NCBI GenBank assembly: GCA_025353725.1
Contig: JANXOF010000087.1
Coordinates: forward strand, 1 to 64,000
Source: Polyangiaceae bacterium
GTDB lineage: Bacteria > Myxococcota_A > Polyangia > Polyangiales > Polyangiaceae
DNA length: 64,000 bases
Direction: 5' to 3'
The position numbers and the translations under genes are program-made. The notes under the pieces are model-generated. The model worked only from the letters and a program-made list of their open reading frames with translations. It was not told where the DNA came from and made no database searches. Shown one piece after another: positions 12,670 through 60,395 of this stretch; the stretch's first letter is position 1; the number at the start of each line of letters is the position of its first letter.

Positions 12670-12677
12670 GCAGCGCG

Positions 12678-13997
12678 ATGGTGTCGACCCCACGGAACAT
12701 GCCGATTGTCGAGACTGCGGTCCGCACCGATCCGGGCCGTGATCCCGAAAAGCAGATCAACGAAGACGGCTCGGCCTACGCCGAAACGGCCCTCGGCCTT
12801 TTGGCCGTGGTGTGTGACGGCATGGGCGGTCACGCCGGCGGCAAAGAGGCTTCCGAGCTCGCCGTCCGGACGATCCTCGAACTCGTTCAGGCCGCTCCAG
12901 AGACGGCTTCGCCTCGCGTCGTGCTCGGGGCTTCTATCGAGGAAGCGAATCGACGCGTCTGGGCGATGTCGACGCAGGAAGGCGGACACCGACCCGGCTC
13001 CACGGTGGTCGCCGTGTTGGTGCATCATGCAGGCGCCGAGGTCGCTCACGTCGGCGATAGCCGCGTCTACCTGGTGCATTCGGGCGCCATTACGCAGCTC
13101 ACGCGGGATCACTCGATGGTCCAAGAAATGGTCGATAGGCGACTCATCAAAGCCGAAGACGCCTCGAGCCACCCTGAGGCCAACAAGATCATGCGCGCAC
13201 TCGGCATCGCGAAAGCCGTGGAGGTCGACCTTCGACCGGAGCCCTTGTCGTATGTGGCAGGCGACGTCCTTGTACTCTGCACGGATGGGCTGAGCGATCT
13301 TGTGAGCGCGAGTGACATTCTCGCGGTGGCCGGCTCGAAACCGCCGGCGCAAGCTGCGGGTCAGCTTGTCGACCTCGCGAATGCACGCGGTGGTCACGAC
13401 AACATTACGTCGATGGTCCTTCGGTTGAAGTCGTCGGCGAGCGCGCACGATGCGTTGCCAATCACAAAGACCATTGCCCTTACCGAGGTTTTCTCCCCGC
13501 GCGTCGCTCCCACGGCTCGTGGCTCACGAACGTTGCTCGAAGCCCCGGTCGCTCCGGTGGCTCCGATGGCCGGCGCTGAACGAAACCATCTTTTCCATTC
13601 TGACTCGCGTTCTCACGGGTCGCCCATGCTTCGGCTGGCGGCCGGCGTTGTCGTTGCTGTCCTCGCGCTCGCCGCGGCTGCCGCAGTGGTTTACCTCGAG
13701 CAGCGCTCGCGGCATCATACTGTTACGGTGGTCGAGCAAGAGGCCGCGGCGCCCTCCCGTGCGGACGAGGCGGATGCCGCACCCGCCGGAATAACGACGC
13801 CCGAAATCACGGCGTCGCCCGCGCTCGCCCCGCCAAGTGGTGTGAGAGTTCCTTGGTGGCATGACGCCGATGCGCCTTCGCCGGCGAGTGACAACAAGGA
13901 CTGCACGGCCGCGCGCGTGCAAAAAGAGCAAGGGAAACCGGCTTCGAGCTACGCGACTCTCGAGGCGAAGTGCCGTGCCGCAGGCGGCCGGCCCTGA
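12678..13997 (+). CDS. PP2C-family Ser/Thr phosphatase with membrane anchor
   Basis: 439 residues. The N-terminal ~255 residues form a PP2C catalytic domain: NEDG, VVCDGMGGHAGGKEAS, GSTVVAVL, VAHVGDSRVYLV, LVLCTDGLSDLV and GGHDNIT, so the metal-binding aspartates are all present. A variable linker, one membrane helix (about residues 316-340, LRLAAGVVVAVLALAAAAAV) and a short Pro/Ala-rich tail with two cysteines follow. ATG 12678 and ATG 12699 are both possible starts. It should remove phosphate from Ser/Thr on partner proteins, here probably ligands of the neighbouring FHA domains. The matching kinase is not in the window. It is 8 bp downstream of the VWA/FHA gene. Confidence 0.93.
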   Translation: MVSTPRNMPIVETAVRTDPGRDPEKQINEDGSAYAETALGLLAVVCDGMGGHAGGKEASELAVRTILELVQAAPETASPRVVLGASIEEANRRVWAMSTQEGGHRPGSTVVAVLVHHAGAEVAHVGDSRVYLVHSGAITQLTRDHSMVQEMVDRRLIKAEDASSHPEANKIMRALGIAKAVEVDLRPEPLSYVAGDVLVLCTDGLSDLVSASDILAVAGSKPPAQAAGQLVDLANARGGHDNITSMVLRLKSSASAHDALPITKTIALTEVFSPRVAPTARGSRTLLEAPVAPVAPMAGAERNHLFHSDSRSHGSPMLRLAAGVVVAVLALAAAAAVVYLEQRSRHHTVTVVEQEAAAPSRADEADAAPAGITTPEITASPALAPPSGVRVPWWHDADAPSPASDNKDCTAARVQKEQGKPASSYATLEAKCRAAGGRP

Positions 13998-14028
13998 AGC
14001 GACGCGCTTGGGTTAGGATGCCGACCCA

Positions 14029-16971
14029 ATGATTCCCGGTTTCGGAAAAGAGCAAATCTCTATCGGCAGCGCGCCGGACAACGACGTCGTCCTTCAAGGG
14101 CCCGGGATCGCACCGCGGCATGCGTGCATCGTCAAACAGGGAGGGGGACTCGCGTTCGTGGATCTCGGGGCGGGCGCGTCGCTCGCAAACCACGTTCCGC
14201 TCACGCCGAACCAGCCTGTCCCGTTCGACTTTCGTACGCCGTTTAGTGTGGGGCAGGGCACGCCGGTGCCTCTCTCGCATCCCGCAATCGTCTTAATGAT
14301 CATGTCGCGTGGCACGCTTGTCGCGCCGCCCGGCCATTTGATCCTTGGTCGTGAAGCCTCGGTGTCGTCCCTCGTGTTAGCGAGTCCTGCGGTGAGTGCG
14401 ACGCACGCGACCGTGATGATGAACCGCATGATGGTCCAAGACGCCGGATCGACGAGCGGGACCTACGTGGGAGGCCAGCGCATTCCACCGAATCAGCCGA
14501 CGCCGCTCGACCCGAATGGCATCGTCGCCTTTGGTCCGATTCCCGTTCCAGTCGGGCTTCTCGCGTCGCTCGCACAGGGATTGGCGGAGCCACCGGTGGC
14601 AGGCGCCGGCGCGAACGGTTCGCCGCGGAAGCACCGTACGGTGATCGGCGAGCTGAATCTCGACAAGCTCCAGGGAGCTGTGATCACGATTGGCCGCACG
14701 CCGGACAATCAGATTGTCGTGCCGCATCCCCAAGTAAGCGCAAGGCACGCGCAGATCGAAAATCAGGGCGGCCAACTCTTTCTCGAGGATCTCGGAAGCG
14801 GAAACGGGACGTTTGTTCGTGGGCAACGCCTCACCCGCGGGCAGAAGGTCCCGGTCGCGAACGGGGAGAAGGTCTACATCGGGCCGATGCCCGTGCTGAT
14901 CCAAATCGCGGGTCAGCAGGTCAACGTCGTGGTCGAAGACCAACAGGCGTCTTGGGCCGGTAAACCGCTCTACGAGATTGAAGCGTGGGACCTTTATCTC
15001 GAAGTCCCCGATCGCGACAACAAAGCCGAGATGAAGGTCTTGCTCGACCACGTGTCGTTCAAAGCGCTTCCGGGCGACATGATAGCCCTCATGGGGCCCT
15101 CCGGCGCGGGCAAGACGACGCTTCTCCTTACGCTGAATGGCTATCTCCCGCCGAGTAGCGGCCAGGTTCGAATCAATGGTGACGATCTCTATGCCGTCTA
15201 CGACGCCCTTCGTGGCGTCATTGGGTACGTTCCCCAAGACGACATTGTTCACCCCGAGCTGACGGTCTTCGAGGCCGTAAAGTATTCCGCGAGATTCCGA
15301 CTGCCAAACGACTATTCGGAGGAAGAAATCAACGCGCGGGTCGAACAGACGCTCCGCGATCTCGGCCTCGAGGCCGTGCAGAATCTTCAAATTGGAAAGC
15401 CCGAGAAGAAAGTACTTTCGGGGGGTCAACGAAAGCGCGTGAACATCGCTCTCGAGCTTGTTACCGACCCAGTCATTCTGTTTTTGGACGAGCCGACCTC
15501 GGGACTCGCAGCCGACGACACGACGGCGCTCATCAATCTCTTGCACGATCTCACGAAGAAGACGGGCAAGACGATTATCATGACGATTCATCAGCCGGCC
15601 AAAGACGAATACGAGAAATTCAATCTCGCGTTCATTATGGGTTACGGCGGTATTCCCACCTACTTTGGCCCGACAGGCGAGCCGAGCTATCGCTTTTTCA
15701 GGAGTATTCTCGACAACCCGCAAAGTCCCTTTCGCACGATGTCGATAGCGAAGGGGCGGAGTGTCGACAACCCTCGCGACATGTTCGACATGCTCAACAT
15801 TCGCGAGCGAGGCGTGCACGAGGCGATGAAGCGGGTCGACCCCAACACGTCGCGCAATACGGCGAGGCTTGCGGCCGCGCGCGAGTGGCGCGGCGAGTTC
15901 ATGGCGAACGCGAACCCCGTCTTTCAGCAAATGTATTCGGGCCGGCGTGCAGTGGGTACCGAGCCCGCGGCGCGAGGTGTCCCGCATCGAGCCAGCGTCG
16001 CGCTATTCAATCAGCTCAAGCTTCTGATGTCTCGTTACTGGAAGATCAAAACCCGCGACACGGCAGGCGCCGCGATCATGTTCCTTCAGGCTCCGGTCAT
16101 CGGCTTGATGCTCGCGTTCGTCTTCGCGGGGCAAAAAGAGGCCGTGCCGTTTTGGTGCCTGGGCGCTCTGCAAGAGCTCGGACGCAAAGTGCAGAGCGCG
16201 CAAGGCTCGACCGACCTCCTCGCGCGCATGCTGGCCACCAAAGACAATACGGCGGCGATGTTCTTTGTGGTCGTGTCGGCCGTGTGGTTCGGAACTTCCA
16301 ATTCCGCCCGCGAGATCGTGACCGAGCGAGCGATTTATCTCCGCGAGCGGATGGTGAATCTCTCGATCGTGAATTACGTTTTTTCTAAATACATCATCCT
16401 CAGTCTTATCTGCGTATTCCAGTGCACGATGCTGCTCGGCATTGTCTTCTTTGCACTCGGGTTCCATGGCGGCGCCGGTGCGTTTCTCCTTGAACTCGCC
16501 GTCATGGTCGCTGTGGCGATGAACGCGTGCGCGCTCGGGATGCTCCTATCGACGATCGTGTCGTCCGCCGAGGCCGCGATGGCGCTCACGCCGATTGCGC
16601 TCATCCCGCAGGTCGTGCTTGGTGGCCTCATGGTGCCGATGACGACCAATCCGATGCTCAAGCCGCTGATGTACGTCATGCCGGCCCGCTGGGGATTCGA
16701 GGGGTCCATTGCCTACGAACGAACCGCCATTGCCAAAGAGCCCGCCTGGTTTATCGACCTCCAAAACCCATCGCTCAACAGCCCACCCGATTACGTATTC
16801 GGAGGCCACTTTCAATGCGCGGTGGCGCAGATGGGCTCCGACACGCTTAAGGGCGCGTGGGGGTTCACCATGTACGACCAGGTATGGCTCCCGATTACGG
16901 CACTTCTCGGAATGACCGTCGTGATGCTGGCGCTCCTCCTCGTGTTGCTCAAGCGGCGCGACCCCGTTTGA
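14029..16971 (+). CDS. ABCG-like ABC transporter with three N-terminal FHA domains
   Basis: 980 residues, a full half-transporter with a regulatory head. Three FHA units: residues 1-85 (IGSAPDND...IAPRHA, lacking the usual Arg and Ser), about 95-175 (LGREASVSS...VSATHA) and about 215-300 (IGRTPDNQ...VSARHA, GSGNGTFVRG). The ATPase domain has Walker A GPSGAGKTT (about 357-365), signature LSGGQRKRVNIA (about 463-474) and Walker B VILFLDEPTSGLA. The C-terminal part is an ABC-2/ABCG-type domain with about six helices. Dimerised, it would export a substrate across the inner membrane, with activity likely gated by phosphothreonine binding. Substrate unknown. It follows the PP2C gene by 31 bp. Confidence 0.93.
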   Translation: MIPGFGKEQISIGSAPDNDVVLQGPGIAPRHACIVKQGGGLAFVDLGAGASLANHVPLTPNQPVPFDFRTPFSVGQGTPVPLSHPAIVLMIMSRGTLVAPPGHLILGREASVSSLVLASPAVSATHATVMMNRMMVQDAGSTSGTYVGGQRIPPNQPTPLDPNGIVAFGPIPVPVGLLASLAQGLAEPPVAGAGANGSPRKHRTVIGELNLDKLQGAVITIGRTPDNQIVVPHPQVSARHAQIENQGGQLFLEDLGSGNGTFVRGQRLTRGQKVPVANGEKVYIGPMPVLIQIAGQQVNVVVEDQQASWAGKPLYEIEAWDLYLEVPDRDNKAEMKVLLDHVSFKALPGDMIALMGPSGAGKTTLLLTLNGYLPPSSGQVRINGDDLYAVYDALRGVIGYVPQDDIVHPELTVFEAVKYSARFRLPNDYSEEEINARVEQTLRDLGLEAVQNLQIGKPEKKVLSGGQRKRVNIALELVTDPVILFLDEPTSGLAADDTTALINLLHDLTKKTGKTIIMTIHQPAKDEYEKFNLAFIMGYGGIPTYFGPTGEPSYRFFRSILDNPQSPFRTMSIAKGRSVDNPRDMFDMLNIRERGVHEAMKRVDPNTSRNTARLAAAREWRGEFMANANPVFQQMYSGRRAVGTEPAARGVPHRASVALFNQLKLLMSRYWKIKTRDTAGAAIMFLQAPVIGLMLAFVFAGQKEAVPFWCLGALQELGRKVQSAQGSTDLLARMLATKDNTAAMFFVVVSAVWFGTSNSAREIVTERAIYLRERMVNLSIVNYVFSKYIILSLICVFQCTMLLGIVFFALGFHGGAGAFLLELAVMVAVAMNACALGMLLSTIVSSAEAAMALTPIALIPQVVLGGLMVPMTTNPMLKPLMYVMPARWGFEGSIAYERTAIAKEPAWFIDLQNPSLNSPPDYVFGGHFQCAVAQMGSDTLKGAWGFTMYDQVWLPITALLGMTVVMLALLLVLLKRRDPV

Positions 16972-48320: not shown

Positions 48321-48386
48321 AGACCGGCTGAATTGAGTCTCAGCGTAGCCCTATCAAGTTTTCTACATTTTTCTGGAAGGTATGTC

Positions 48387-49511
48387 ATGAAAGTTGCTGC
48401 AATTTCAGTTGTGCTTGGCTCGCTCGTGGCCTGTTCGGCAGACTCGACAAGAGCCGACGAGGATATCGGCCTTGCGACGTCCGCAGCCAGCGTCGAAGAC
48501 CACGTCGACATTGATCGGATCGCGATGGGCAACGGGCACATCTGCGCGTTGCTTCGAGAGGGGAACGTTCGCTGCTGGGGCGGCAGTCGCCTCGCCTACG
48601 GAGTCTGTTCTGGTACGGCGGGGCGGGGCGCCTTTGGCTTCGATGGCAGCGGGCAATCGATTCGAGGCCTCGACGGGGTCGTTGACATCGTTGCGGCGGA
48701 AACGCACACGTGCGCCGTCATTCGAGATGGCTCCGTTCGCTGCTGGGGCGGCGACGAATCTCAGTTCTCGACGGGTTCCAACAGCCCTATCGAGCCGGTT
48801 CCCGGCGTGCGGGATGTCGTTTCCGTGGGGACCGAGCTTGGGCGCACCTGCGCGCTTCTTGGCACGGGTGAGGTCACGTGCTGGGGGGTCGGCGTGGCGC
48901 CCCCGGGGCGGCGCCTTGCGGGTCTGTTCTCGGTCAAGGAGCTGAGTCGTCGGGATGCATGCGTGCGCGCGGGGGAGGAAGTCTCGTGCGTTCCCTCATC
49001 TCTTCGAGCGTGCGTGCCTGGTGCGCGAAACGTTTCGCTTCCTACGCTCCGCGGCGCTACGAGCACTGTGTTGTCAAAGCTCGGTGCGTGCGGCGTTCGC
49101 GAGGGTCGAGCCGTCTGCGTGGGGCTGCCGCGGGAAGACCGGGACCAAGAAATCCGGAGTGCGCCAACGGACTTGGGGCCTGCTGCGCAGGTCGCATTCC
49201 TGGAGTCTGATGTTTATTGCCTGGTCAAGCCAGATGGGGGCGTATCGTGCGCACCTCAACGCTCTCCGGCTGGAGACGACGGGGTGCCCGAGTTTCGGGT
49301 GCCCCTGCAGCCGTTGACTGGACTCACAGATGTCGTATCCATCGTTCCCGGAAGCCTGTTGTCTGGAGAGGTTGAACCTCGCTCCCTCCTCATCGATGCG
49401 TGTGCACTCCGCAGGGATAGCGGAATCCAGTGTTTTGGTCTTCGCACGGAAGGAGACAGCCTGATCGCGAAGGTCTTGCCTGTCATGTACCTCCCACGCG
49501 AAAGCAGGTAG
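48387..49511 (+). CDS. RCC1-like propeller lipoprotein
   Basis: 374 residues from ATG 48387, with GGAAGG six bases upstream. The signal ends VVLGSLVAC, a lipobox. Repeats of the RCC1/BNR kind follow: HICALLREGNVRCWGG, HTCAVIRDGSVRCWGG, RTCALLGTGEVTCWG, then weaker copies near DVYCLVKPDGGVSC and DACALRRDSGIQCFG. The Cys-Ala-Leu...Gly-x-Val-x-Cys-Trp-Gly pattern is typical of myxobacterial RCC1-repeat lipoproteins. It forms a beta-propeller outside the membrane; the ligand is unknown. It follows the cytochrome-like gene by 66 bp on the same strand and ends next to an IS3 fragment. Confidence 0.85.
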   Translation: MKVAAISVVLGSLVACSADSTRADEDIGLATSAASVEDHVDIDRIAMGNGHICALLREGNVRCWGGSRLAYGVCSGTAGRGAFGFDGSGQSIRGLDGVVDIVAAETHTCAVIRDGSVRCWGGDESQFSTGSNSPIEPVPGVRDVVSVGTELGRTCALLGTGEVTCWGVGVAPPGRRLAGLFSVKELSRRDACVRAGEEVSCVPSSLRACVPGARNVSLPTLRGATSTVLSKLGACGVREGRAVCVGLPREDRDQEIRSAPTDLGPAAQVAFLESDVYCLVKPDGGVSCAPQRSPAGDDGVPEFRVPLQPLTGLTDVVSIVPGSLLSGEVEPRSLLIDACALRRDSGIQCFGLRTEGDSLIAKVLPVMYLPRESR

Positions 49512-49700: not shown

Positions 49701-50509
49701 GAGGAAGCCTCTACGACAACGACAGGTGCGCTACGAGCTGCGAAGGAAAGCGATGGGTAAGTGTAATTGACTTCGGGCAAATCTCGGTTCTCTTGCCTGC
49801 TGAGCGAGGGGCTATGGGTCCGCCGATGAAGAGCAATCGGGTCATGGTCGACGCGATACTTTGGGTTGTTCGTACGGGCGCGCCTTGGCGCCACCTTCCG
49901 GAGTGCTTCGGACCGTGGAAGTCGCTGCATACGCGATTCTCTCGTTGGCAACACCGTGGCGTCTGGCAACGCGTCTTCGAGGCGAGAGCAAGCGACCAAG
50001 ATGGCGAGACCTACATGATCGACGCCACGTTCGTAAGAGCCCATCAGGATTGTGCTGGCGCTCAGAAAAAGTGGCGAGCAAGCCATCGGACGTTCGCGCG
50101 GAGGACTCACCACGAAGATTCACGCGCGTGTGGACGCCCTCGGAAACCCTGTCCAGTTCGCACTCACCGAGGGGCAACGGCACGACTACCTCCTGGCCGA
50201 AACGCTCACGAAGGACGTGAGCGGAGCCGACCCGCTCGCCGATCGCGGCTACGACGGTGACAGCCTCCTCGAGAGCCTCCGCGCTCGGAATTGCGTTGCG
50301 GTGATTCCGTCGAAGAAGAGCCGAAAAATCCCGTGTTTGCCCGAGAAACACCTCGACACCGAGCGACACCTTGTGGAGTGCTTCTTTCAGAAGCTCAAAC
50401 GAAATCGGCGCGTCGCCACGCGCTACGAGAAGCTCGCGACGAACTTTCTTGCGATGGTGCTACTGGCTGGGATCACGATCTGGCTCGCATGACTCCGAAG
50501 ACACGCCCC
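49701..50509 (+). mobile_element. IS5-family (IS427-like) insertion sequence
   Basis: Bounded on the left by the IS3 fragment and on the right by one copy of the 274-bp direct repeat. It holds a two-frame transposase on the plus strand. Terminal inverted repeats were not recognised with confidence, so the borders are inferred from what lies on either side. Confidence 0.65.
49726..50492 (+). pseudogene. IS5-family transposase, two-frame and possibly N-terminally damaged
   Basis: The N-terminal part reads VRYELRRKAMGK, then changes frame into LLPAERGAMGPPMKSNRVMV, AILWVVRTGAPWRHLPECFG and YMIDATFVRAHQDCAGAQKK (D1). A second frame continues with GLTTKIHARVDALGNPV, ADPLADRGYDGDSLLE (D2) and ERHLVECFFQKLKRNRRVAT (E). 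The DDE triad is complete. In IS427-type elements the second switch is programmed and a run of A (gaaaaagtgg) lies at that point; the first change of frame near residue 12 is more likely a lesion. So a full-length functional protein is doubtful. Confidence 0.72.
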
Positions 50510-50782: not shown

Positions 50783-51471
50783 GGAGGGCAGGGGTCCCTT
50801 CGTCTTCATCGGCCGGTGACCACACTCCAGCGCGCGTCGAGGAAAACGAAGTCTCGCGGCAATTTCTGCGGTGACCATCCGCGAAGGGCGAAAATGCGTG
50901 CGAACGCAGCGTTCGAGGTGCGAACGCCAGTTCGCCGCGAACTTGCCCAAACGGGAGACGCCATTGACGAATCGGGTCCGTCGCCAGTACCGCCCATGCG
51001 GGCTGGGCTCCCAAACTCACGTGACCACTACGAACGCAGCGAACCGACCGACATCGTCGGCCAAGAAGCCGTGCGAACGTTGATCGCACTTATGTCTTCG
51101 CGTCGATGACTGGCCAGCGCGGCCCACCGTCACATTGAAAAAGCTACTCAACAAGTCGCGGCAACTGGCTAGTGTAAACTAAGTGCTGTCGGTCGCGACC
51201 TCGTTCGCGCGGCCCCCCCCCTTGCAGGCGGGGACCTCCCAACAGCGCCAAAGAACCAAACCAACCCTGCGATGAGTTATTACTATCTTGCCGTGAAGAC
51301 ACGTAGAGCGCGCACGTTTCTCGCGGGCGATAGCTTTCCCATGACCATCGACCGGAGGCCTCCGGCAACGCCACGAATGCCATGGCAGAAGCGGGGTCTC
51401 GTCTTTCTCGACGGTCTCACACCGCCGCATGCGTGCCCTTGCGCCAACCGTATCTACGACGGCGGGCAACC
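50783..51471. other. About 0.7 kb without a recognisable gene
   Basis: The stretch downstream of the repeat copy has only shadow-like open frames. The plus frame reads with moderate protein likeness (ESGPSPVPPMRAGLPNSRDH) but no family match, and a C-rich run occurs near 51215. The promoter of the MCE operon should lie just before 51472. Confidence 0.5.
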
Positions 51472-52632
51472 GTGACCGAGACACGTATCCGTCCCGAAGC
51501 CCTCTTGCCGACGGCAGAAGTGGAGCTCTCGGACGCTAAGGGCGAGGCTCGTCAGGTGTCACTGCGAGGCACACTGACGTTCGCGGGCGCCGCCGACATT
51601 TGGTCGCGCATTCGCACGGGAACAGCCACTTTGAAGGAGGGAGACGAAATCGACTTCGACGTGTCGCAAGCCGGAGCGATTGACGGCGGTACGATGGCGC
51701 TCCTCGTTCACCTTCGCGGAGAGCTCGCGGCGCGGGGCGTTCGCGCGGAGTTCACGGGTGCCGCCGAGCCTATTCAAGCGCTCATTCACCTCTACAAAGG
51801 TGACATCGACGCGACCAAGCGAAAGAAGCGTAAAGCAGAGTCGTTGCTTGCCCACGTCGGCCGAGCGACCGTCCAGTTTTTTGAAGAGGTGCAAGGCGTC
51901 CTAGGTTTCTTCGGAAGTGCCGTGCTCGCCGCTTTCGGGCTCCTGCGAGAGCCGAGAACAGGGAATTGGAAGGCCATTCTCCCAACGATGGAGCGTTCGG
52001 GAGCAGACGCCGTGCCCATCGTCGTGCTCATCAATTTTTTGGTCGGATTCGTGATGGGCTTTCAAGGCGCGACGCAGCTGAAGCAGTTCGGCGCAAATCT
52101 TTACGTCGCCGACCTCGTGGGGCTCTCGGTCACGCGAGAGCTCGGGCCACTCATGACCGCGATCATTCTCTGCGGTCGCTCCGGCGCGGCCTTCGCAGCG
52201 GAACTAGGTTCGATGTGCGTCTCCGAAGAAATCGACGCGCTGCGCACTATGGGATTTGGTCCGATTCGGTACCTCGTACTCCCACGCATGGTGGCCCTCA
52301 TGTTGGTGCTCCCACTTCTCACGTTGCTCGGAGACCTGATGGGCATGCTCGGAGGCCTGGTCGTCGGAATATCCAGTCTTGGGCTAACTTTTGGCGGTTA
52401 TCTCTTCGAGACACAGAAGGCAGTCTCGATGTGGGACGTTTTCTCAGGGCTTATTAAGAGCGTGGTTTTCGCTATGGCGATTTCGCTCATCTCTTGTCAA
52501 CAGGGCTTCGCGACGACGGGCGGAGCCGAAGGCGTAGGGCGTCGCACGACAGCGTCCGTCGTTTCTATCTTGTTCGCCCTTATCATCCTCGACGCGGGGT
52601 TCACCATGTTTTTCCACGCGTTCAACCTTTGA
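51472..52632 (+). CDS. MlaE-family permease with N-terminal STAS domain
   Basis: GTG 51472 (VTETRIRPE) is chosen; ATG 51382 would add a Ser/Arg-rich stretch. 386 residues. The first ~115 form a STAS domain (VSLRGTLTFAGAADIWSRI, DFDVSQAGAIDGGTMALLVH), as found in MlaB but here fused to the permease. The remainder is an MlaE permease with GATQLKQFGANLYVADLVG, LGPLMTAIILCGRSGAAFAA and EEIDALRTMGFGPIRYLV. MlaE-type permeases form the inner-membrane part of MCE lipid transporters. It shares one base with the mlaF-like gene and starts the seven-gene operon. Confidence 0.94.
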   Translation: MTETRIRPEALLPTAEVELSDAKGEARQVSLRGTLTFAGAADIWSRIRTGTATLKEGDEIDFDVSQAGAIDGGTMALLVHLRGELAARGVRAEFTGAAEPIQALIHLYKGDIDATKRKKRKAESLLAHVGRATVQFFEEVQGVLGFFGSAVLAAFGLLREPRTGNWKAILPTMERSGADAVPIVVLINFLVGFVMGFQGATQLKQFGANLYVADLVGLSVTRELGPLMTAIILCGRSGAAFAAELGSMCVSEEIDALRTMGFGPIRYLVLPRMVALMLVLPLLTLLGDLMGMLGGLVVGISSLGLTFGGYLFETQKAVSMWDVFSGLIKSVVFAMAISLISCQQGFATTGGAEGVGRRTTASVVSILFALIILDAGFTMFFHAFNL

Positions 52633-53369
52633 TGCCGCCCTTCATCCGAGTCAGCAACCTCACCATGGGTTGGGGCGACGTCATTTTGCAAAGGAACCTG
52701 ACCTTTCAGGTCGACCGCGGCGACGTGTTTGCCATTCTCGGTGGCAGCGGTTGCGGTAAGTCCACCCTTTTGCGGTATCTCATTGGATTAGAGACGCCGC
52801 TCTCTGGCGAGATTGTCATTGACGGTTTAGGACGTCCGAATCTCGAGGTCGGGCGGCCCCCCTTCGGTGTCATGTTCCAGTCGGGCGCCCTTTTCGGGTC
52901 GCTCACGGTCGGTGAGAACATCGGGCTCTCGCTCGAACAGTGGACCCCACTGTCGCATGACGCGATTGGCGCTATCGTTCGCGCAAAATTGAGGCTTGTG
53001 GGCCTCGATGGCGCAGAAAACAAGCTGCCGAGCGAGCTGTCCGGTGGGATGAAAAAGCGCGCCGCCATCGCCCGGGCCCTCGCGCTGGAGCCTCCGCTCG
53101 TGTTCCTCGACGAGCCCTCCGCCGGGCTTGACCCGGTGAGCGCAGTTGAGCTGGACGAATTGATTCTGACCCTAAACCAAGTGCTCGGTCTGACCGTGGT
53201 GCTCGTGACGCACGAACTCCCGAGCATCTTCAAGATCGCAAGGCGGTGCATCATGCTCGACAAGCAAACCAAAAGCATTCTTGCGGAGGGCGACCCCTGC
53301 GACCTTCGGGACAACAGCGCGGAACCACGCGTTCGCGAGTTTTTCAATCGCCTAGCCAAGAGGGCCTAA
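52632..53369 (+). CDS. MlaF-family lipid transport ATPase
   Basis: 245 residues from ATG 52632, overlapping the previous stop. Walker A is LGGSGCGKSTLLRYL, the signature is LSGGMKKRAAIARALA and Walker B is LVFLDEPSAGLDPVS; the switch His lies in VLVTHELPSIFKIA. These are the residues expected of MlaF. It drives lipid movement through the MlaE-MCE assembly. It is joined to the next gene by a TAATG junction. Confidence 0.95.
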   Translation: MPPFIRVSNLTMGWGDVILQRNLTFQVDRGDVFAILGGSGCGKSTLLRYLIGLETPLSGEIVIDGLGRPNLEVGRPPFGVMFQSGALFGSLTVGENIGLSLEQWTPLSHDAIGAIVRAKLRLVGLDGAENKLPSELSGGMKKRAAIARALALEPPLVFLDEPSAGLDPVSAVELDELILTLNQVLGLTVVLVTHELPSIFKIARRCIMLDKQTKSILAEGDPCDLRDNSAEPRVREFFNRLAKRA

Positions 53370-54328
53370 TGTCAACGCCCACTAATCACTGGAAGCTCGG
53401 ATTATTCGTTGTCACGTCCGTCGTTCTGGCCGCCTGCACGGTTGTCTTCCTCGGCGCACAGAGTCTGAAGAAGCAGTCGGTGAGCTACAAAACTTATTTC
53501 GACGAATCCGTCCAGGGGCTCGAGGTTGAATCGCCCATCAAATTTCGTGGCGTGACCATCGGCAACGTGAGCTCCATCGACGTCGCACCCGACCATAGGC
53601 ACGTGGCAGTGACGAGTGCGCTGACCGTCAAGGACCTCAAAGAGCTCGGGCTAAGCGACGGTGTAGGAACTAAAACGAAAATTCTAATTCCGGCCGACTT
53701 ACGTGTCCAGCTGGCGTCGCAAGGAATCACGGGGGTAAAATTCCTACAAATCGATTTTTTTGATATCAAAGATAATCCTGCGCCTGTTTTGCCTTTTCCC
53801 GTTCCAGACAACACTATTCCTGCAGCTTTATCGACCATGAAAAATTTGGAAGATGCCATCGTGCGCGCAGTAAACCGCCTTCCCGAATTGGCGGATGGCA
53901 TATTAAGGGTCACTGTCAAAACGGGTCGGATGCTCGACGATATCGAGAGCAAGAAGCTTCCGCAAGGCGCCGCAAACTCGCTTCTTGGGATCAATCAACT
54001 GGTGGGAACGCTGCAGGGGACCCTCAACCAGATTAGCGCGGGGAAGCTTTCTGCAGAAGCGGAGGAGGCACTTGCCAATCTCAATACCACGCTCAAGCGC
54101 GCCAACGCCTTGCTCGCTCGGGTCGACGGGGAGAAGGGAATTTTGGCGAGCGCGACGCGTGCGACCAATGCCGTGGGCGATATGGCATCGAATACGCGCG
54201 AACTGAGCCAAGAGCTGCAGGAGACACTGCGCGATATCCAAGGAGTGACGGCGGCCGTTCAACGGGTGGCTGACGCCCTCGAGCGCGATCCGGACATGCT
54301 GCTTAAAGGCCGAGGCAAAATTAAATGA
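53369..54328 (+). CDS. MCE-domain (MlaD-like) periplasmic lipid-binding protein
   Basis: 319 residues. One N-terminal membrane helix (WKLGLFVVTSVVLAACTVVF) is followed by an MCE domain: DESVQGLEVESPIKFRGVTI, GNVSSIDV and VQLASQGITGVKFLQIDFF. The C-terminal ~140 residues are a long helical or coiled-coil part (SAEAEEALANLNTTLKRANA), as in the larger MCE proteins that make needles or tubes rather than in short MlaD. It probably forms a hexameric lipid channel above the permease. It overlaps the next gene by 4 bp. Confidence 0.93.
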   Translation: MSTPTNHWKLGLFVVTSVVLAACTVVFLGAQSLKKQSVSYKTYFDESVQGLEVESPIKFRGVTIGNVSSIDVAPDHRHVAVTSALTVKDLKELGLSDGVGTKTKILIPADLRVQLASQGITGVKFLQIDFFDIKDNPAPVLPFPVPDNTIPAALSTMKNLEDAIVRAVNRLPELADGILRVTVKTGRMLDDIESKKLPQGAANSLLGINQLVGTLQGTLNQISAGKLSAEAEEALANLNTTLKRANALLARVDGEKGILASATRATNAVGDMASNTRELSQELQETLRDIQGVTAAVQRVADALERDPDMLLKGRGKIK

Positions 54329-54993
54329 CCGCTTGCTCACGTCTTGCTACGGCGACCCTCGTTGCCTTTTCGTCCGTGGGCTGCGCGCTCACATCCAAGA
54401 GCGACTCGGTTATTCTCCACTATTTCACGCCCGAACGCGTGATGTCGCGTGCCGTTGCGGCTGCAGCGCCTCCAGCTAGCGCGTCCAACCTCAGCCTTCG
54501 TTTAGGTAGAGTGAGCGCGGCTACTTACCTTCGGGAACGGATTGCGTTTCGCGATTCCGACTACGAAGTTGGCTACTATGATGATTTGCGCTGGACTGAA
54601 AGGCCTGACGCCTACGTAAGGCGCGCTATGGTTCGCGGCCTTTTCGAGGATCAGCCCATCAGGCAGGTGATCTCAGGACCCGGGCCTACCCTCGACATCG
54701 AGCTTAACGCATTCGAAGAGCTTCGTATTCCTCGGCACGCAGCACGCGTCGAGATCACTTGGATACTTCACGACGACCAGGCCGTTGTCCTTCAAAAAAC
54801 GCGCCTCGTCGAGCGCACCATCAGCGCCGAGAAGTCCAGCACGAGCGCTGGGGCGGTGGCGACCGCGATGTCGGAGGCATTGGGTGAAGCGGTGAAGACT
54901 GCAGTCACTGATATTGTGGTTGTACTTTCGAACGCGCCAGCGGCTCAGGGCGAGTTGCCGACTGCTAAACTGCGCGAGATACGGCAACCCTGA
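54325..54993 (+). CDS. PqiC-like ABC-transport auxiliary lipoprotein
   Basis: 222 residues. The signal ends VAFSSVGC, a lipobox. The central part has the ABC_trans_aux/DUF330 pattern: LHYFTPERVM, LSLRLGRVSAATYLRERIAF, YEVGYYDDLRWTERPDAYVR and RRAMVRGLFEDQ. PqiC homologues are outer-membrane lipoproteins that connect MCE needles to the outer membrane. It shares a 4-bp overlap with the MCE gene and one base with the next. Confidence 0.9.
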   Translation: MTACSRLATATLVAFSSVGCALTSKSDSVILHYFTPERVMSRAVAAAAPPASASNLSLRLGRVSAATYLRERIAFRDSDYEVGYYDDLRWTERPDAYVRRAMVRGLFEDQPIRQVISGPGPTLDIELNAFEELRIPRHAARVEITWILHDDQAVVLQKTRLVERTISAEKSSTSAGAVATAMSEALGEAVKTAVTDIVVVLSNAPAAQGELPTAKLREIRQP

Positions 54994-55349
54994 TGAAAGC
55001 TGGACTTTTCTGCGCCGTCGTTGCCCTTTCCGCTACGGCCATGAATTGCGTGAGTTACGCGCCACCGACGCTGCATCTCGCGTCGGCTATGTCTTCGGCC
55101 CAAGCCGCAGCGCATCTTGGCGCGGCTCAACTGCCTCTCGCAGCACTACACCTGACGCTGGCACAGGAAGAACTTTCCCGCGCCAACGACCTTGTGCGTG
55201 AGGGCGAGAATGAAAAAGCTGACTACATGACGCTCCGCGCGTACAACGATGCTGAGCTCTCGATCGCCCTCACGCGCGAGGCCGCCGCACAAAGGAAGGC
55301 CGCCGATGCCTCCGAAAAAGAGCGCAACGTTGGGAGTGCCAATCCATGA
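54993..55349 (+). CDS. DUF4398-type lipoprotein
   Basis: 118 residues. The signal ends SATAMNC, a lipobox. The mature part is an alanine-rich helical hairpin: AMSSAQAAAHLGAAQLPLAA, LTLAQEELSRANDLV and EKADYMTLRAYNDAELSIAL, matching DUF4398. These lipoproteins often stand before OmpA-like domains and are thought to lie in the periplasm. It overlaps the next gene by 4 bp. Its presence in an MCE operon is not usual in well-studied species. Confidence 0.82.
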   Translation: MKAGLFCAVVALSATAMNCVSYAPPTLHLASAMSSAQAAAHLGAAQLPLAALHLTLAQEELSRANDLVREGENEKADYMTLRAYNDAELSIALTREAAAQRKAADASEKERNVGSANP

Positions 55350-55756
55350 ACGCGAAGTGGGCCCTTGCCGCAATCCTCGTCGGCGCATGTGGCGGGCCGC
55401 CTCCTCAGGAACTCGTCGACGCGCGCGCTGCTTTCAAACGCGCCTCTCGCGGTCCCGCAGCAGAGTTCAATGCCGTTGGACTTCATGTCGCGAAGACAGC
55501 TCTTGATATCGCTGAGCAAACGTACGAATCCGACGGAAATTGCGACAAGACGCGGGATCGCGGGTACGTCGCGATTCGAAAGGTTGAACGCGCTGAGGTG
55601 CTCGCACGCACGAAGCGGTTTGATGCCACGGCCGAGGCGGCAGAACGCCGGGCTCGTCTAAAGCAGTCCGAGCTGAACGCGCGGAACCGGCGCGAGCTCG
55701 CCCGGACCAAGTCAGAGCTTATCGAAGTCGCTGTTCCTCCGAGCGCGCCGAAATGA
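55346..55756 (+). CDS. DUF4398-like lipoprotein, second copy
   Basis: 136 residues. The short signal ends AILVGAC, a lipobox. The helical hairpin ELVDARAAFKRASRGPAAEF, HVAKTALDIAEQTYES and RGYVAIRKVERAEVLARTKR corresponds to the N-terminal part of myxobacterial DUF4398/OmpA fusion proteins; the OmpA part is absent. It overlaps both neighbours by 4 bp. It may dimerise with the preceding lipoprotein. Confidence 0.78.
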   Translation: MNAKWALAAILVGACGGPPPQELVDARAAFKRASRGPAAEFNAVGLHVAKTALDIAEQTYESDGNCDKTRDRGYVAIRKVERAEVLARTKRFDATAEAAERRARLKQSELNARNRRELARTKSELIEVAVPPSAPK

Positions 55757-56994
55757 AAAGGCTCTCATGGTCCCTCGCGCTCTTGCTCGTGACCGCGCAC
55801 GACGCGCGGGCAGACGACGAAGTTGAAATCCCCATGGTGCCCGACCAGAAGACAGAGGTTACCGTCCTCCCACTTGTCGGCGGCGATAGCGATATCGGAT
55901 TCGGTGGCGGTGCGCTGAGTTCCGTCGCGCGTCTGGACAAGGCCTACAGACCATACCTCTGGCGCGTGGAATCGATTGCCGTCATTACCTTCAAAAGCTC
56001 TCCGACCGGCGGTCTGGACATTCCGTATCAAGAATACTTTATGAAGGTGACGTTACCGCACCTTGTGAAGCGCCGGCTCCGATTCGAGCTTCGGCCGTCT
56101 TTCAATTGGTTAGCGACTATCAAGTACTACGGACTTGGCAATGATTCCAAGTTTGAACCCCAGCCGTCAGACCTGCAGGCGCCTCGCTACTACGAATACG
56201 GGCGAATTAACCCAGCCCTGCGTTCATCGTTGCGCGTTGCAATGAACCACGGCGTTTCGTTTCTCGTGGGCGCGGCATACACGCAGAACTGGCTCGAAGT
56301 TCCTGCGGAAAGTAAGCTCGCTGAAGACATGCGGAACGGAAGCGCAGACGTAAAGTCGATCCTCGGCAATGCGCGGCCGCACGGGGTGCTGCAGTTCGAA
56401 TACGGCGTCATTTACGACCGAAGAGACAATGAAACGTCCACCAAGCGAGGGATGTTTCACCAAGCCACCGTGCGACTTTCACCGGGCGGGGGCGGACTCT
56501 TCCTTCCGTATCAATTTGGCGAAGCCAACGTCACAATTCGATTTTTCTTACCCCTCGGCACGCCACGCGTAGTCTTCGCGGCGCGCGGAGTGGTGGACCT
56601 TCTGGTGGGCAACGTCCCCTTCTACGAGCTCGCGCGCTTTGAGGACTCGAACGCCATTGGAGGCGTCAACGGAGTGCGCGGTGTTCCCGCGCAGCGCTAC
56701 TACGGTAAGGCAAAAGTGTTTGGAAATCTCGAGCTCCGGGCAGAGGTCTTCGAATTCCCGGTCTGGAACAAAGCCTATAAATTTGGGGTAGTCGGTTTTT
56801 TCGACGGAGGCAGGCTTTGGGCAGATTATAAGCGGCGCCCCGAGCTCGACGGGACGGGGATCGGCCTCAAGTACGGCGTGGGAGGTGGCCTTCGGATCCA
56901 GAGCGGCGATAGCTTTGTCCTTCGCGCTGACGTCGCGTGGTCGCCGGACGCGCGCCCCATCGGCGCCTACTTCGGCGCCGGCCAGATGTTTTGA
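55753..56994 (+). CDS. Omp85-superfamily outer-membrane barrel
   Basis: 413 residues with a signal peptide (LALLLVTAHDARAD). The rest is amphipathic beta-strands: LPLVGGDSDIGFGGGALSSV, RFELRPSFNWLATIKYYGLG, LQFEYGVIYDRRDNETSTKR, then the Omp85 signature near NAIGGVNGVRGVPAQRYYGK and GNLELRAEVFEFP, ending in an aromatic residue (GQMF). This is the bacterial surface antigen (BamA/TamA C-terminal) barrel, without POTRA domains. The VRG motif of strand 6 is kept. It is the last gene of the MCE operon, 4 bp overlapped, and is a candidate outer-membrane port. Confidence 0.88.
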   Translation: MKRLSWSLALLLVTAHDARADDEVEIPMVPDQKTEVTVLPLVGGDSDIGFGGGALSSVARLDKAYRPYLWRVESIAVITFKSSPTGGLDIPYQEYFMKVTLPHLVKRRLRFELRPSFNWLATIKYYGLGNDSKFEPQPSDLQAPRYYEYGRINPALRSSLRVAMNHGVSFLVGAAYTQNWLEVPAESKLAEDMRNGSADVKSILGNARPHGVLQFEYGVIYDRRDNETSTKRGMFHQATVRLSPGGGGLFLPYQFGEANVTIRFFLPLGTPRVVFAARGVVDLLVGNVPFYELARFEDSNAIGGVNGVRGVPAQRYYGKAKVFGNLELRAEVFEFPVWNKAYKFGVVGFFDGGRLWADYKRRPELDGTGIGLKYGVGGGLRIQSGDSFVLRADVAWSPDARPIGAYFGAGQMF

Positions 56995-57043: not shown

Positions 57044-58102
57044 GTGTTGAACAGTACGTCCCCAGGATCGCCACGCGAAATGAAGGCGCTCGGCTTTTTG
57101 GCACTCGCGGCTCTGACCGCTCTCCTTCGAATTGCGCTTCCTGTCGGCGTCGGCCTGTTTCTGGGCGCGCTCTTGGCGTTCACGCTACAACCGCTCTATG
57201 GGCGTTTGCGCGCACATCGTTGGCGCGCGGGTACCGCGGCGCTGACTTGCACGTTAGGGGCGACGACGATCATAGCTGCCGTGGTCGCGGCCCTGATTGC
57301 GCTCTTCATCACACGGAGCATGTCGATGGTTCTGACTCTTTCGGACCTGCTCGGCCCCCACGGCGCGTTGCGCGAGGCCGGCGAGCGCCACCTGAAATCG
57401 CTGTCGGTCATTCACCTTCAGCCTGCCTCATTCGCCGCCAAGCTTCAGGAGGGAGCGATGGCGCTCGGATCACGCGCCGCGAGTTTCACCGCCGACGCGG
57501 CGAACGCGACCTTCGGAGCACTGCTCACGCTTCTTTTCATGGCGCTAGCCACCTACTTTGTGTTGCTCCACTGGAACGAAATGGTCAGTAGGGCCGAGGG
57601 GATGCTTCCCTTTGAGCCACGTCACACCCACGCTCTCCTCGACCAGTTCCGAAAAGTCGGACGGCAAGTATTGAAGGGAACGGTCGTGACCGGACTGTTG
57701 CAAGGAGCCCTCGCGGCCATTGGATACGCCTTCACGGGCCTTGCCGACCCCATGTTTTTTGGCGCGCTGACGGCCGTAGCGTCTCTCGTTCCGGCGGTGG
57801 GAACGTTGCTCGTTTGGGTACCTATCGGCTTGTACTTATTGGTCACAGGCCATGTCGGCGCAGGTGCCTGCGAACTCATTTACGGAGTCTTAGTCGTTGG
57901 AATTATTCCTGATTACGTCATTCGACCAAAGCTCGTCGGAAGCGAAAAGGGCGTCCCTGCGGTTTTCACGTTTGTATCGCTCTTCGGCGGCGTGGAGGTT
58001 TTCGGTCTCATTGGCCTTGTTTTGGGGCCAGTGATTGTGACTCTGGCAATCGCCATTCTGCGCACGTACGACGCCGAATTACACGCCGCCCGCAGGACGT
58101 GA
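57044..58102 (+). CDS. AI-2E family permease
   Basis: 352 residues from GTG 57044; ATG 57080 is an alternative. About eight helices, with the family signature VVTGLLQGALAAIGYAFTGL, AVASLVPAVGTLLVWVPIGL and FGLIGLVLGPVIVTLAIA. Members include TqsA/PerM-like proteins, some of which act as Na+/H+ antiporters. It is 49 bp after the Omp85 gene, so co-transcription is possible. It ends with a 24-bp tail-to-tail overlap with the convergent gene. The substrate is not evident. Confidence 0.9.
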   Translation: MLNSTSPGSPREMKALGFLALAALTALLRIALPVGVGLFLGALLAFTLQPLYGRLRAHRWRAGTAALTCTLGATTIIAAVVAALIALFITRSMSMVLTLSDLLGPHGALREAGERHLKSLSVIHLQPASFAAKLQEGAMALGSRAASFTADAANATFGALLTLLFMALATYFVLLHWNEMVSRAEGMLPFEPRHTHALLDQFRKVGRQVLKGTVVTGLLQGALAAIGYAFTGLADPMFFGALTAVASLVPAVGTLLVWVPIGLYLLVTGHVGAGACELIYGVLVVGIIPDYVIRPKLVGSEKGVPAVFTFVSLFGGVEVFGLIGLVLGPVIVTLAIAILRTYDAELHAARRT

Positions 58103-59541: not shown

Positions 59542-60395
59542 TCAGGCGACGACGAGTGCGGTCGCTTGCGAAGCTCGCGTGACGCTCTCGGCCTTCGCCT
59601 TGGAAGCCGCCTTCATGCTACCTGCATGCGATTCGGGCGGCCGGGGCACTCCGCGCGCTTCGCTTGCCGGGCGTGCCGCCAGCACCCCATGCAGCCGCAG
59701 CAGTGGGTAGCGCGGCGGAGGCACCATCGCCGCCAGGCGAGCGAGGCATTCGATGGGCGACATCACGCGTTGCTGGATGCGGTCGCGTCCAGCCTTCTTG
59801 ACGCGGTAAACGACGAGGCCCTCGCGACGCCGCGACAAGCGCGCCACCGAGAACGCTGGACGCGCGAGGTAGCGGCACAATCGCTCGCGCGTGGTCGTCG
59901 GGCGCCGGGACATTGAGGCTTGCCCCTGCGCGGTGCACGCCGGTCACCGCGCCTGTCTCCCCGCGTCGTGGCCAGCCCGGCGCGCTTGGCCGAGCGCAGG
60001 TAGCGCCGACGTAGCGCCTTCCAGAAGATGTGCGAAAGCGAGCGAAGGACATCGGGTCGGGTGGCCGCGAGACCGGACAGCTCGTACGGAAAGGCCAGCA
60101 GGTACTGCCGCACTGGCGCTGCCGGCAGGACGCAGTCCACCAGGTGCGCCGCCGTACCCGCCATGAGGCGCCCTGCGCAACTCGGGCACAGTCCTCGAAG
60201 TTTGCATGAGAACGCGACGGCCACCTCCTTTCGACACGCGGGACACTTGACGTGGACGAACCCGCGCGAAAAGTCGCCGCATTCCAGGTACTCCCGAAAG
60301 TCGTCGCGCACGTACGGCGGAAGCGGACCGTCGTACGCCTCGTGCGCGTGCTGGAGGAAGGCCTCGAGGTGCTGCTGCACGAGGCCAAAGAGCAC
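59542..60395 (-). pseudogene. IS91-family transposase, internally deleted
   Basis: The N-terminus is intact from 60395 and shows the zinc-binding part: CGDFSRGFVHVKCPACRKEV, FSCKLRGLCPSCAGRLM and the IS91-typical VDCVLPAAPVRQYLLAFPYE. After about 150 residues the frame is lost; a short piece GAVTGVHRAGASLN follows in another frame. The C-terminal IS91 section is in yet another frame: RLCRYLARPAFSVARLS, VVYRVKKAG and ECLARLAAMVPPPRYPLLRL. The catalytic HUH/Tyr region expected between them is absent, so a deletion plus frameshifts inactivated it. Confidence 0.82.

Follow-up and report, generated by a model that had tools for sequence, protein, structure and literature searches.

A stretch of 64,000 nucleotides from a Polyangiaceae bacterium (contig JANXOF010000087.1, positions 1 to 64,000; hereafter the window) carries seven intact open reading frames (ORFs) on the + strand, at 51472-56994, which form an MCE operon with an Omp85 gene at its end. 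From sequence comparison we propose, at a probability of about 0.5, that the operon encodes an ATP-driven, predicted phospholipid transporter of the Mpc type, and that it took on a set of outer-membrane accessories in this lineage. The novelty is the tail of the operon, composed of a DUF4398 pair (LP1 and LP2) and the barrel, which was added in this lineage and is drawn from families found repeatedly near MCE genes or near a family resembling lipid bridges. Functional coupling of this tail to the MCE core is judged about even, ahead of the rival explanations.

Architecture of the operon

The seven genes are as follows.

51472..52632, + strand: STAS (MlaB-like) and MlaE permease fusion, MpcE type (Pfam MlaE 1.1e-76, STAS_2 2.4e-8; NCBIfam MlaE subfamily model TIGR00056 above cut-off)
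52632..53369, + strand: MlaF-type ATPase (Pfam ABC_tran 4.9e-28; top NCBIfam model MlaF, under its cut-off; 1-bp overlap with the MlaE gene, TGATG)
53369..54328, + strand: single-MCE-domain protein with one transmembrane (TM) helix and a long helical tail, the needle, MpcD type (Pfam MlaD 5.1e-16; AlphaFold 2 (AF2) model; relative in PDB entry 13hr)
54325..54993, + strand: PqiC/MpcA-type lipoprotein (Pfam ABC_trans_aux, PqiC type, 4.3e-15; lipobox SVGC by eye; relatives in PDB entries 13hr, 13hq and 2iqi by profile A8)
54993..55349, + strand: LP1, DUF4398 protein, probable lipoprotein (Pfam DUF4398 1.6e-6; lipobox AMNC, atypical)
55346..55756, + strand: LP2, DUF4398 lipoprotein without a C-terminal OmpA domain (Pfam DUF4398 4.7e-10; lipobox VGAC by eye)
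55753..56994, + strand: POTRA-less Omp85 barrel with a signal peptide and 16 strands (Pfam Omp85 5.4e-16; NCBIfam Omp85_fam model NF047779 above cut-off; AF2)

A first-pass annotation of this DNA had described the same seven genes in this order, each overlapping the next by 1-4 bp. Both descriptions hold, since all ORFs are intact, Pfam confirms the families, and the junctions read, in gene order, TGATG, TAATG, ATGA, TGATG, ATGA and ATGA (overlaps of 1, 1, 4, 1, 4 and 4 bp). The GTG start of the MlaE gene at 51472 is a choice, with an alternative in-frame ATG at 51382. Because promoter and terminator scans of the operon performed no better than on shuffles, the operon boundaries are based on the overlaps alone. 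The window represents contig C41 of a 6.6-Mb genome in 98 contigs, in which three more MCE matches and six more Omp85 matches are present.

The first four genes match the Mpc transporter

Mpc of Brucella abortus, a chimera of Mla and Pqi, is encoded by four genes: MpcE (an MlaE with an N-terminal STAS domain), MpcF, MpcD (331 aa, an MCE domain with a helical tail) and MpcA (a PqiC homologue), and the Mpc proteins co-precipitate (PMC12436622, in the available sections). In predicted content, window genes 1-4 are a match to Mpc, so that the type of system has already been described. STAS_2 (residues 29-108) and MlaE (residues 172-379) are found by Pfam in a single protein, as in MpcE, and an MlaF ATPase, an MCE protein of ~330 aa with a helical extension, and a PqiC-like lipoprotein, the product of the final Mpc gene, all stand in one operon. 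However, Mpc comprises four genes only, and no DUF4398 protein or Omp85 barrel is named for it in the available sections of PMC12436622.

The AF2 monomer of the MCE protein shows a helix at residues 8-34, an MCE beta domain, and helices at 157-314, the tail being of low confidence. The profile of the needle (A4, from 49 relatives of the window MCE protein) matches chain I of PDB 13hr, a protein of 312 aa, over profile positions 1-321, i.e. the whole length, and the PqiC-like profile matches the lipoprotein of the same entry. The window MCE tail ends in LERDPDMLLKGR, which is aligned to LEENPANYLLGR in 13hr. A PqiC-type lipoprotein is present in entries 13hr, 13hs and 13hq, one of which also holds the single-MCE protein of 312 aa; the MCE protein accounts for 8 chains in 13hr, and the lipoprotein for 16 in 13hr and 13hs together. 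We take 13hr as a solved example of a needle and a PqiC-type lipoprotein together, known here from chain names, counts and sequences alone.

Other characterized systems were compared as well. In E. coli PqiABC the MCE coiled coil is received by an outer-membrane ring of PqiC-type lipoprotein, PqiC being an octameric toroid that takes in the PqiB C-terminus; however, PqiA works without an ATPase, there are three MCE rings in PqiB, and no barrel gene belongs to the system (PMC10897342, available text). The window operon has instead an ABC permease with an ATPase, and one MCE domain by Pfam. The MlaA and MlaC proteins of canonical Mla systems were not found by Pfam among the operon genes, the part of the genome that was searched. 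MlaEFD of Veillonella parvula shares with the window an ATP-driven core, a long MCE protein and an outer-membrane barrel, but its barrel is ten-stranded and constitutes the MlaD C-terminus, and MlaA and MlaC are lacking (PMC10665443, available text, in which the words 'PqiC' and 'Omp85' do not occur). To say that Mla-type systems do without an outer-membrane barrel is therefore too strong. In the window MCE protein a C-terminal barrel within the chain was not found, helices running to the C-terminus in this monomer model, which leaves room for a six-chain mini-barrel.

The core is not confined to this genome. Scanning a collection of genome contigs with eight orthologues confirmed 370 stretches, and the best 80 loci were kept; their record titles name Myxococcales, Deltaproteobacteria, Planctomycetota and others. 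All four core genes were recognised by profile in 68 of the 80, while 11 had no PqiC match and one no MlaE, in some cases due to contig ends. A full-length MCE orthologue with at least 46% identity is present in 8 of the 115 genomes of the order, including that of the window. As judged by such matches, the MCE core is widespread.

An Omp85 barrel without POTRA domains

The AlphaFold model of the barrel (mean predicted local distance difference test score 86) contains 16 strands between residue 32 and the C-terminus, when 148-152 and 155-163 are taken as one strand. Residues 1-27 are of low confidence, and since nothing is folded ahead of the first strand (residue 32 of the precursor), the barrel has no POTRA domain, in agreement with the first-pass description. 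Its place in the Omp85 superfamily is indicated by the Pfam and NCBIfam matches above cut-off and by its 16-strand BamA-like fold (AF2 and structure comparison). BamA and TamA structures held the top ranks in Foldseek and VIA-align, the best by VIA-align being Fusobacterium BamA (Z 27.9, 329 residues, root-mean-square deviation 3.6), with TamA at Z 22.9. The barrel nevertheless differs from both in having no N-terminal POTRA, and the BamA equivalog model gives it 28.7 bits vs a cut-off of 297. Within the barrel family, RG is invariant in the sequence GVRGVP, which lies in the loop that joins strands 11 and 12; we take it to be the counterpart of the VRGF motif in L6 of Omp85 proteins. In a tree of 32 barrels (the window included, L053 left out), the window barrel lies inside a supported set of 11 (99/99).

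In the chloroplast, an organelle system, the MCE transporter TGD1/2/3 is described as acting together with TGD4, a beta-barrel of the outer envelope that is not known to be an Omp85 protein. TamAB pairs an Omp85 barrel with a bridge that spans the periplasm and is implicated in phospholipid flow, but the bridge is AsmA-like and not MCE, and TamA binds TamB via POTRA domains, absent from the window barrel (PMC11014939, available text). The 'noNterm' Omp85 proteins (PMC4104836; NCBIfam NF047779) are likewise Omp85 barrels with no N-terminal domain; however, their function is putative only, and no link to MCE genes is described in the available text of that paper.

A first scan of the genome contig collection for the barrel gave 12 pattern matches, 0 of which were confirmed. 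We examined 32 barrel loci in full, counting the second barrel of the window's own genome and leaving out the window. Recurring neighbours, grouped by BLAST clustering, were a FadL-type gene in 5/32 loci (Pfam on two), a large single-TM family, A5, in 4/32, and myo-inositol-phosphate synthase in 3/32 (Pfam on one). The second POTRA-less barrel of the genome (contig C74, L045:1-2918) comes directly after a FadL-type (Toluene_X) gene. Loci L052, L053 and L209 have a barrel homologue near myo-inositol-1-phosphate synthase, with a GH3-family gene in L052 and L209 and an LPG_synthase_TM gene in L209.

The DUF4398 pair

The first-pass annotation had called both small proteins DUF4398-type lipoproteins. 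Pfam places both in DUF4398; lipidation of LP1 is uncertain, because its lipobox (..TAMNC by eye) is atypical. LP1 is 34-37% identical to five aligned orthologues, and in the pairs examined it is followed by an LP2 made up of DUF4398 and OmpA parts. The alignment of the window LP2 (A7) stops just before the OmpA part found in all five orthologues aligned (by Pfam on two, by profile or alignment for the rest), and by this comparison the OmpA part is lost from the window LP2. No PDB relative of LP2 was found by phmmer at E ≤ 1. Three more LP1-LP2(OmpA) pairs are present in the same genome. One of these, a complete pair, lies just past the end of the window, ~9 kb downstream of the operon pair (L245:7243-8513, contig ~64242-65512, given also as position 64308).

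Linkage of the tail to MCE genes and to family A5

Linkage was assessed in 108 genomes of the family, genes within 5 kb being counted as linked; the Poisson expectations treat gene density as even over 108 genomes x 8.4 Mb, an approximate size, and the genomes as independent. The lists comprised 50 barrel places (E ≤ 1e-100, weaker rows dropped), 136 LP1-type places in 70 of the genomes, and 61 A5 places after merging of gene pieces. LP1 is linked to MCE in 4 of the 32 family MCE loci (the window, G109, G117 and G148) vs 0.058 expected (Poisson P 4e-7), or in three when the window is left out, the LP1 profile (A6) having been built partly from all four loci, which can bias the search towards them. 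G007 is a further case outside the family. The G148 locus (L124) resembles the window in that the pair follows PqiC in the same orientation, but with the OmpA part kept and a small ORF and a gap in between.

The only other Omp85-bearing locus among 122 overlapping MCE loci (8 + 80 + 34, the window's own included) is L185, with its copy L238, and its make-up is different. In L185 (record title Kofleriaceae bacterium, a metagenome-assembled genome; MCE operon with its continuation entered at 11452-14270), MlaEB-MlaF-MCE-PqiC are followed by an ATP/ADP-translocase/MFS-like gene and the Omp85 gene, with a 4-bp overlap between the last two. The Omp85 protein has 502 aa, and its sole Pfam match is Omp85, at residues 331-460. 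Two lineages thus seem to have done something similar in joining an Omp85 gene to an MCE operon. With seven Omp85 matches in the genome of the window, L185 as a single case among these loci is not strong statistically.

Within the order, several genomes have a member of family A5 (single-TM, ORFs of ~580-930 aa) next to a POTRA-less Omp85 barrel. Its members in the loci examined are:

L049:1617-3518
L050:10027-11283 (cut by the contig end)
L195:5711-8491
L200:11419-13164

Seven of the 50 barrel places are within 5 kb of an A5 gene (54 to 2195 bp, five genera) vs 0.04 expected; three of the seven come from a single genus (g79), and three (G163, G161 and G076) were used to build the A5 profile; without the latter three, four remain. 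LP1 is near A5 at 6/136 places vs 0.11 expected, and in G114 a distance of 271 bp separates the barrel from an LP1-LP2(OmpA) pair. Since the LP1-MCE, barrel-A5 and LP1-A5 proximities exceed the expectation from even spacing, the presence of the tail families near MCE or A5 is not random. A5 weakly resembles the N-termini of AsmA/TamB in sequence, and A5 and the barrel are possibly a POTRA-less counterpart of TamA/TamB. Because the barrel family and the LP pair occur in relatives next to this family with its weak AsmA/TamB likeness, they resemble exchangeable parts that serve bridge-type lipid carriers at the outer membrane. If A5 is AsmA-like, the barrel and the lipoprotein pair would be accessories common to two kinds of lipid bridge.

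Genes around the operon

Two further features adjoin the operon, outside the seven genes:

57044..58102, + strand: AI-2E family membrane protein, 49 bp past the barrel gene (Pfam AI-2E_transport 8.1e-43)
50052..50492, + strand: DDE transposase remnant, upstream (Pfam DDE_Tnp_1 3.1e-12)

Transposase remnants flank the operon on both sides, the second being an IS91 zinc-binding domain at ~59766-60395, and a protein with RCC1-type repeats is encoded at 48333-49511, upstream of the DDE remnant. An AI-2E gene adjoins the MCE core, or lies within ~2 kb of it, more often than the barrel does. It was found by profile near the core in 6/80 loci (L111, L120, L124, L125, L126 and L143), by Pfam in L116 (via L105) and L118 (via L106), and also in the window and G100; L103 and L109 also belong to this set of loci.

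Weighing the explanations

By analogy with known relatives, six MCE chains would assemble into a tube that starts at the inner membrane, and its tail would dock in an octameric PqiC ring beneath the outer membrane. We infer further that LP1 and the LP2 without its OmpA domain, a peptidoglycan-binding type, may serve as helical adapters that substitute for POTRA domains in holding the barrel beside the ring, and that the barrel might ease lipid exchange between the ring and the outer membrane through a local membrane disturbance or a lateral seam. The role of the barrel as a lipid gate is plausible, unproven and, on our estimate, doubtful. The fullest version would be a complete ATP-driven conduit across both membranes, with needle, PqiC ring, barrel gate, and a DUF4398 pair replacing POTRA after loss of the OmpA anchor; more broadly, these bacteria would have an exchangeable kit of barrel and lipoprotein pair that fits MCE or AsmA/TamB-like bridges. 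This we hold to be rather unlikely.

Several observations weigh against an accessory set that belongs to the transporter. The first-pass annotation had named, as a finding that would refute its idea, barrel and DUF4398 genes without MCE genes in most relatives; as regards conservation this is what was observed, as 49 of the 50 strong barrel places and 132 of the 136 LP1-type places are not within 5 kb of orthologous MCE genes. Among the 32 family MCE loci the barrel is linked in the window only, it is absent beside all seven other orthologous MCE operons of the order, and no MCE core was found near any of the 32 barrel loci examined in full, 18 of which have none of the recurring neighbours. 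A strong barrel is present in 33 of the 108 genomes, the core in 29 and both in 13, which is not significant (Fisher P 0.06). The core does not need the barrel, because relatives such as G100 and G080 keep it with no linked barrel, as does the cultured Sorangium cellulosum So ce26 (L149), and the known dock is kept in the window, since both the MCE tail and PqiC are. G236, a genus-mate of L185 (MCE orthologue 42%), has no Omp85 by profile. As for A5, no family MCE locus (0/32) is within 5 kb of it, and its likeness to AsmA is slight: Pfam AsmA matched one of four tested members at E 0.045, HHalign against four TamB/AsmA-like sequences (four of five candidates being taken in) gave a probability of 12% and E 0.0025 vs 0.37-0.88 for three controls, and the only PDB match of the A5 profile was an irrelevant one, none being AsmA/TamB-like.

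A conserved seven-gene system was accordingly rejected, as no second copy was found at the 32 MCE places of the 108 family genomes or in the 122 overlapping MCE loci. Downstream of the 80 core loci the contig reaches at least 2 kb in 61 and 5 kb in 48, and a barrel past a contig end would be missed. ORFs beside the MCE operons in L234 and L233, suspected to be outer-membrane proteins, had no Pfam match. What holds of the proposal in the first-pass annotation is a trans-envelope MCE system to which gene overlaps couple the barrel and the lipoproteins; a conserved system is not supported. The idea stays alive through the recurrence of both tail modules near A5 or the MCE core beyond even spacing, and through the Omp85 gene of the distant operon L185. 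In the open-licence PubMed Central literature, preprints excluded, titles and the starts of abstracts yielded no paper linking Omp85 barrels to MCE operons, and 'Myxococc' is absent from the available text of the two closest MCE papers (PMC10665443, PMC12436622).

The same counts can be read to mean that the tail genes are passengers, the core working alone as Mpc while the DUF4398 pair and the barrel, with an unrelated job in the outer membrane, arrived by rearrangement and are merely co-transcribed. The lone barrel-MCE link in the family, the many barrel loci with no recurring neighbour, the flanking transposase remnants, and the presence elsewhere in the genome of three further LP1-LP2(OmpA) pairs and of another barrel, next to a FadL gene, all fit this explanation. 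It accounts less well for two tight junctions not seen in relatives (PqiC-LP1 TGATG and LP2-barrel ATGA), for the loss of just the OmpA part of LP2, and for the recurrence of the LP pair beside MCE together with a second Omp85-bearing MCE operon, L185. We consider it a serious contender, of roughly one-third weight in our judgement, and give preference to an Mpc-type transporter with an acquired accessory set.

An assembly helper is improbable. Here the barrel would be an insertase like BamA or TamA that folds outer-membrane proteins or places the lipoproteins of the operon, handling no lipid itself; its top structural matches are BamA, TamA and Sam50, and Heinz and Lithgow suggested a possible role of 'noNterm' Omp85 proteins in the biogenesis of membrane proteins (PMC4104836, available text). 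However, the barrel has no POTRA, which BamA and TamA use for partner binding (PMC11014939, available text), the operon codes for no other barrel as a client, and the barrel family is found next to A5 more often than evenly spaced genes would be. Far less credible still is a retained needle-barrel device of the Veillonella kind, in which a barrel once fused to MlaD has been split off into a gene of its own. Veillonella MlaD does end in an outer-membrane barrel, but one of ten strands within the MCE chain itself (PMC10665443, available text), whereas the window has a 16-strand Omp85 barrel with relatives away from MCE genes, in an operon that keeps PqiC; the split-off origin was rejected on the strand number and the relatives.

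How lipids pass between a periplasmic bridge and the outer membrane is an open question for both MCE and AsmA-like systems. With its overlapping genes for an MCE needle, a PqiC-type lipoprotein and a POTRA-less Omp85 barrel in a single operon, the window offers a natural test case. The occurrence of the same barrel and lipoprotein families beside the weakly AsmA-like A5 leads to the hypothesis of a common partner, for which cultured relatives offer a test. Taken together, the operon gives a hint, short of proof, of a new outer-membrane end for MCE-type lipid machines.

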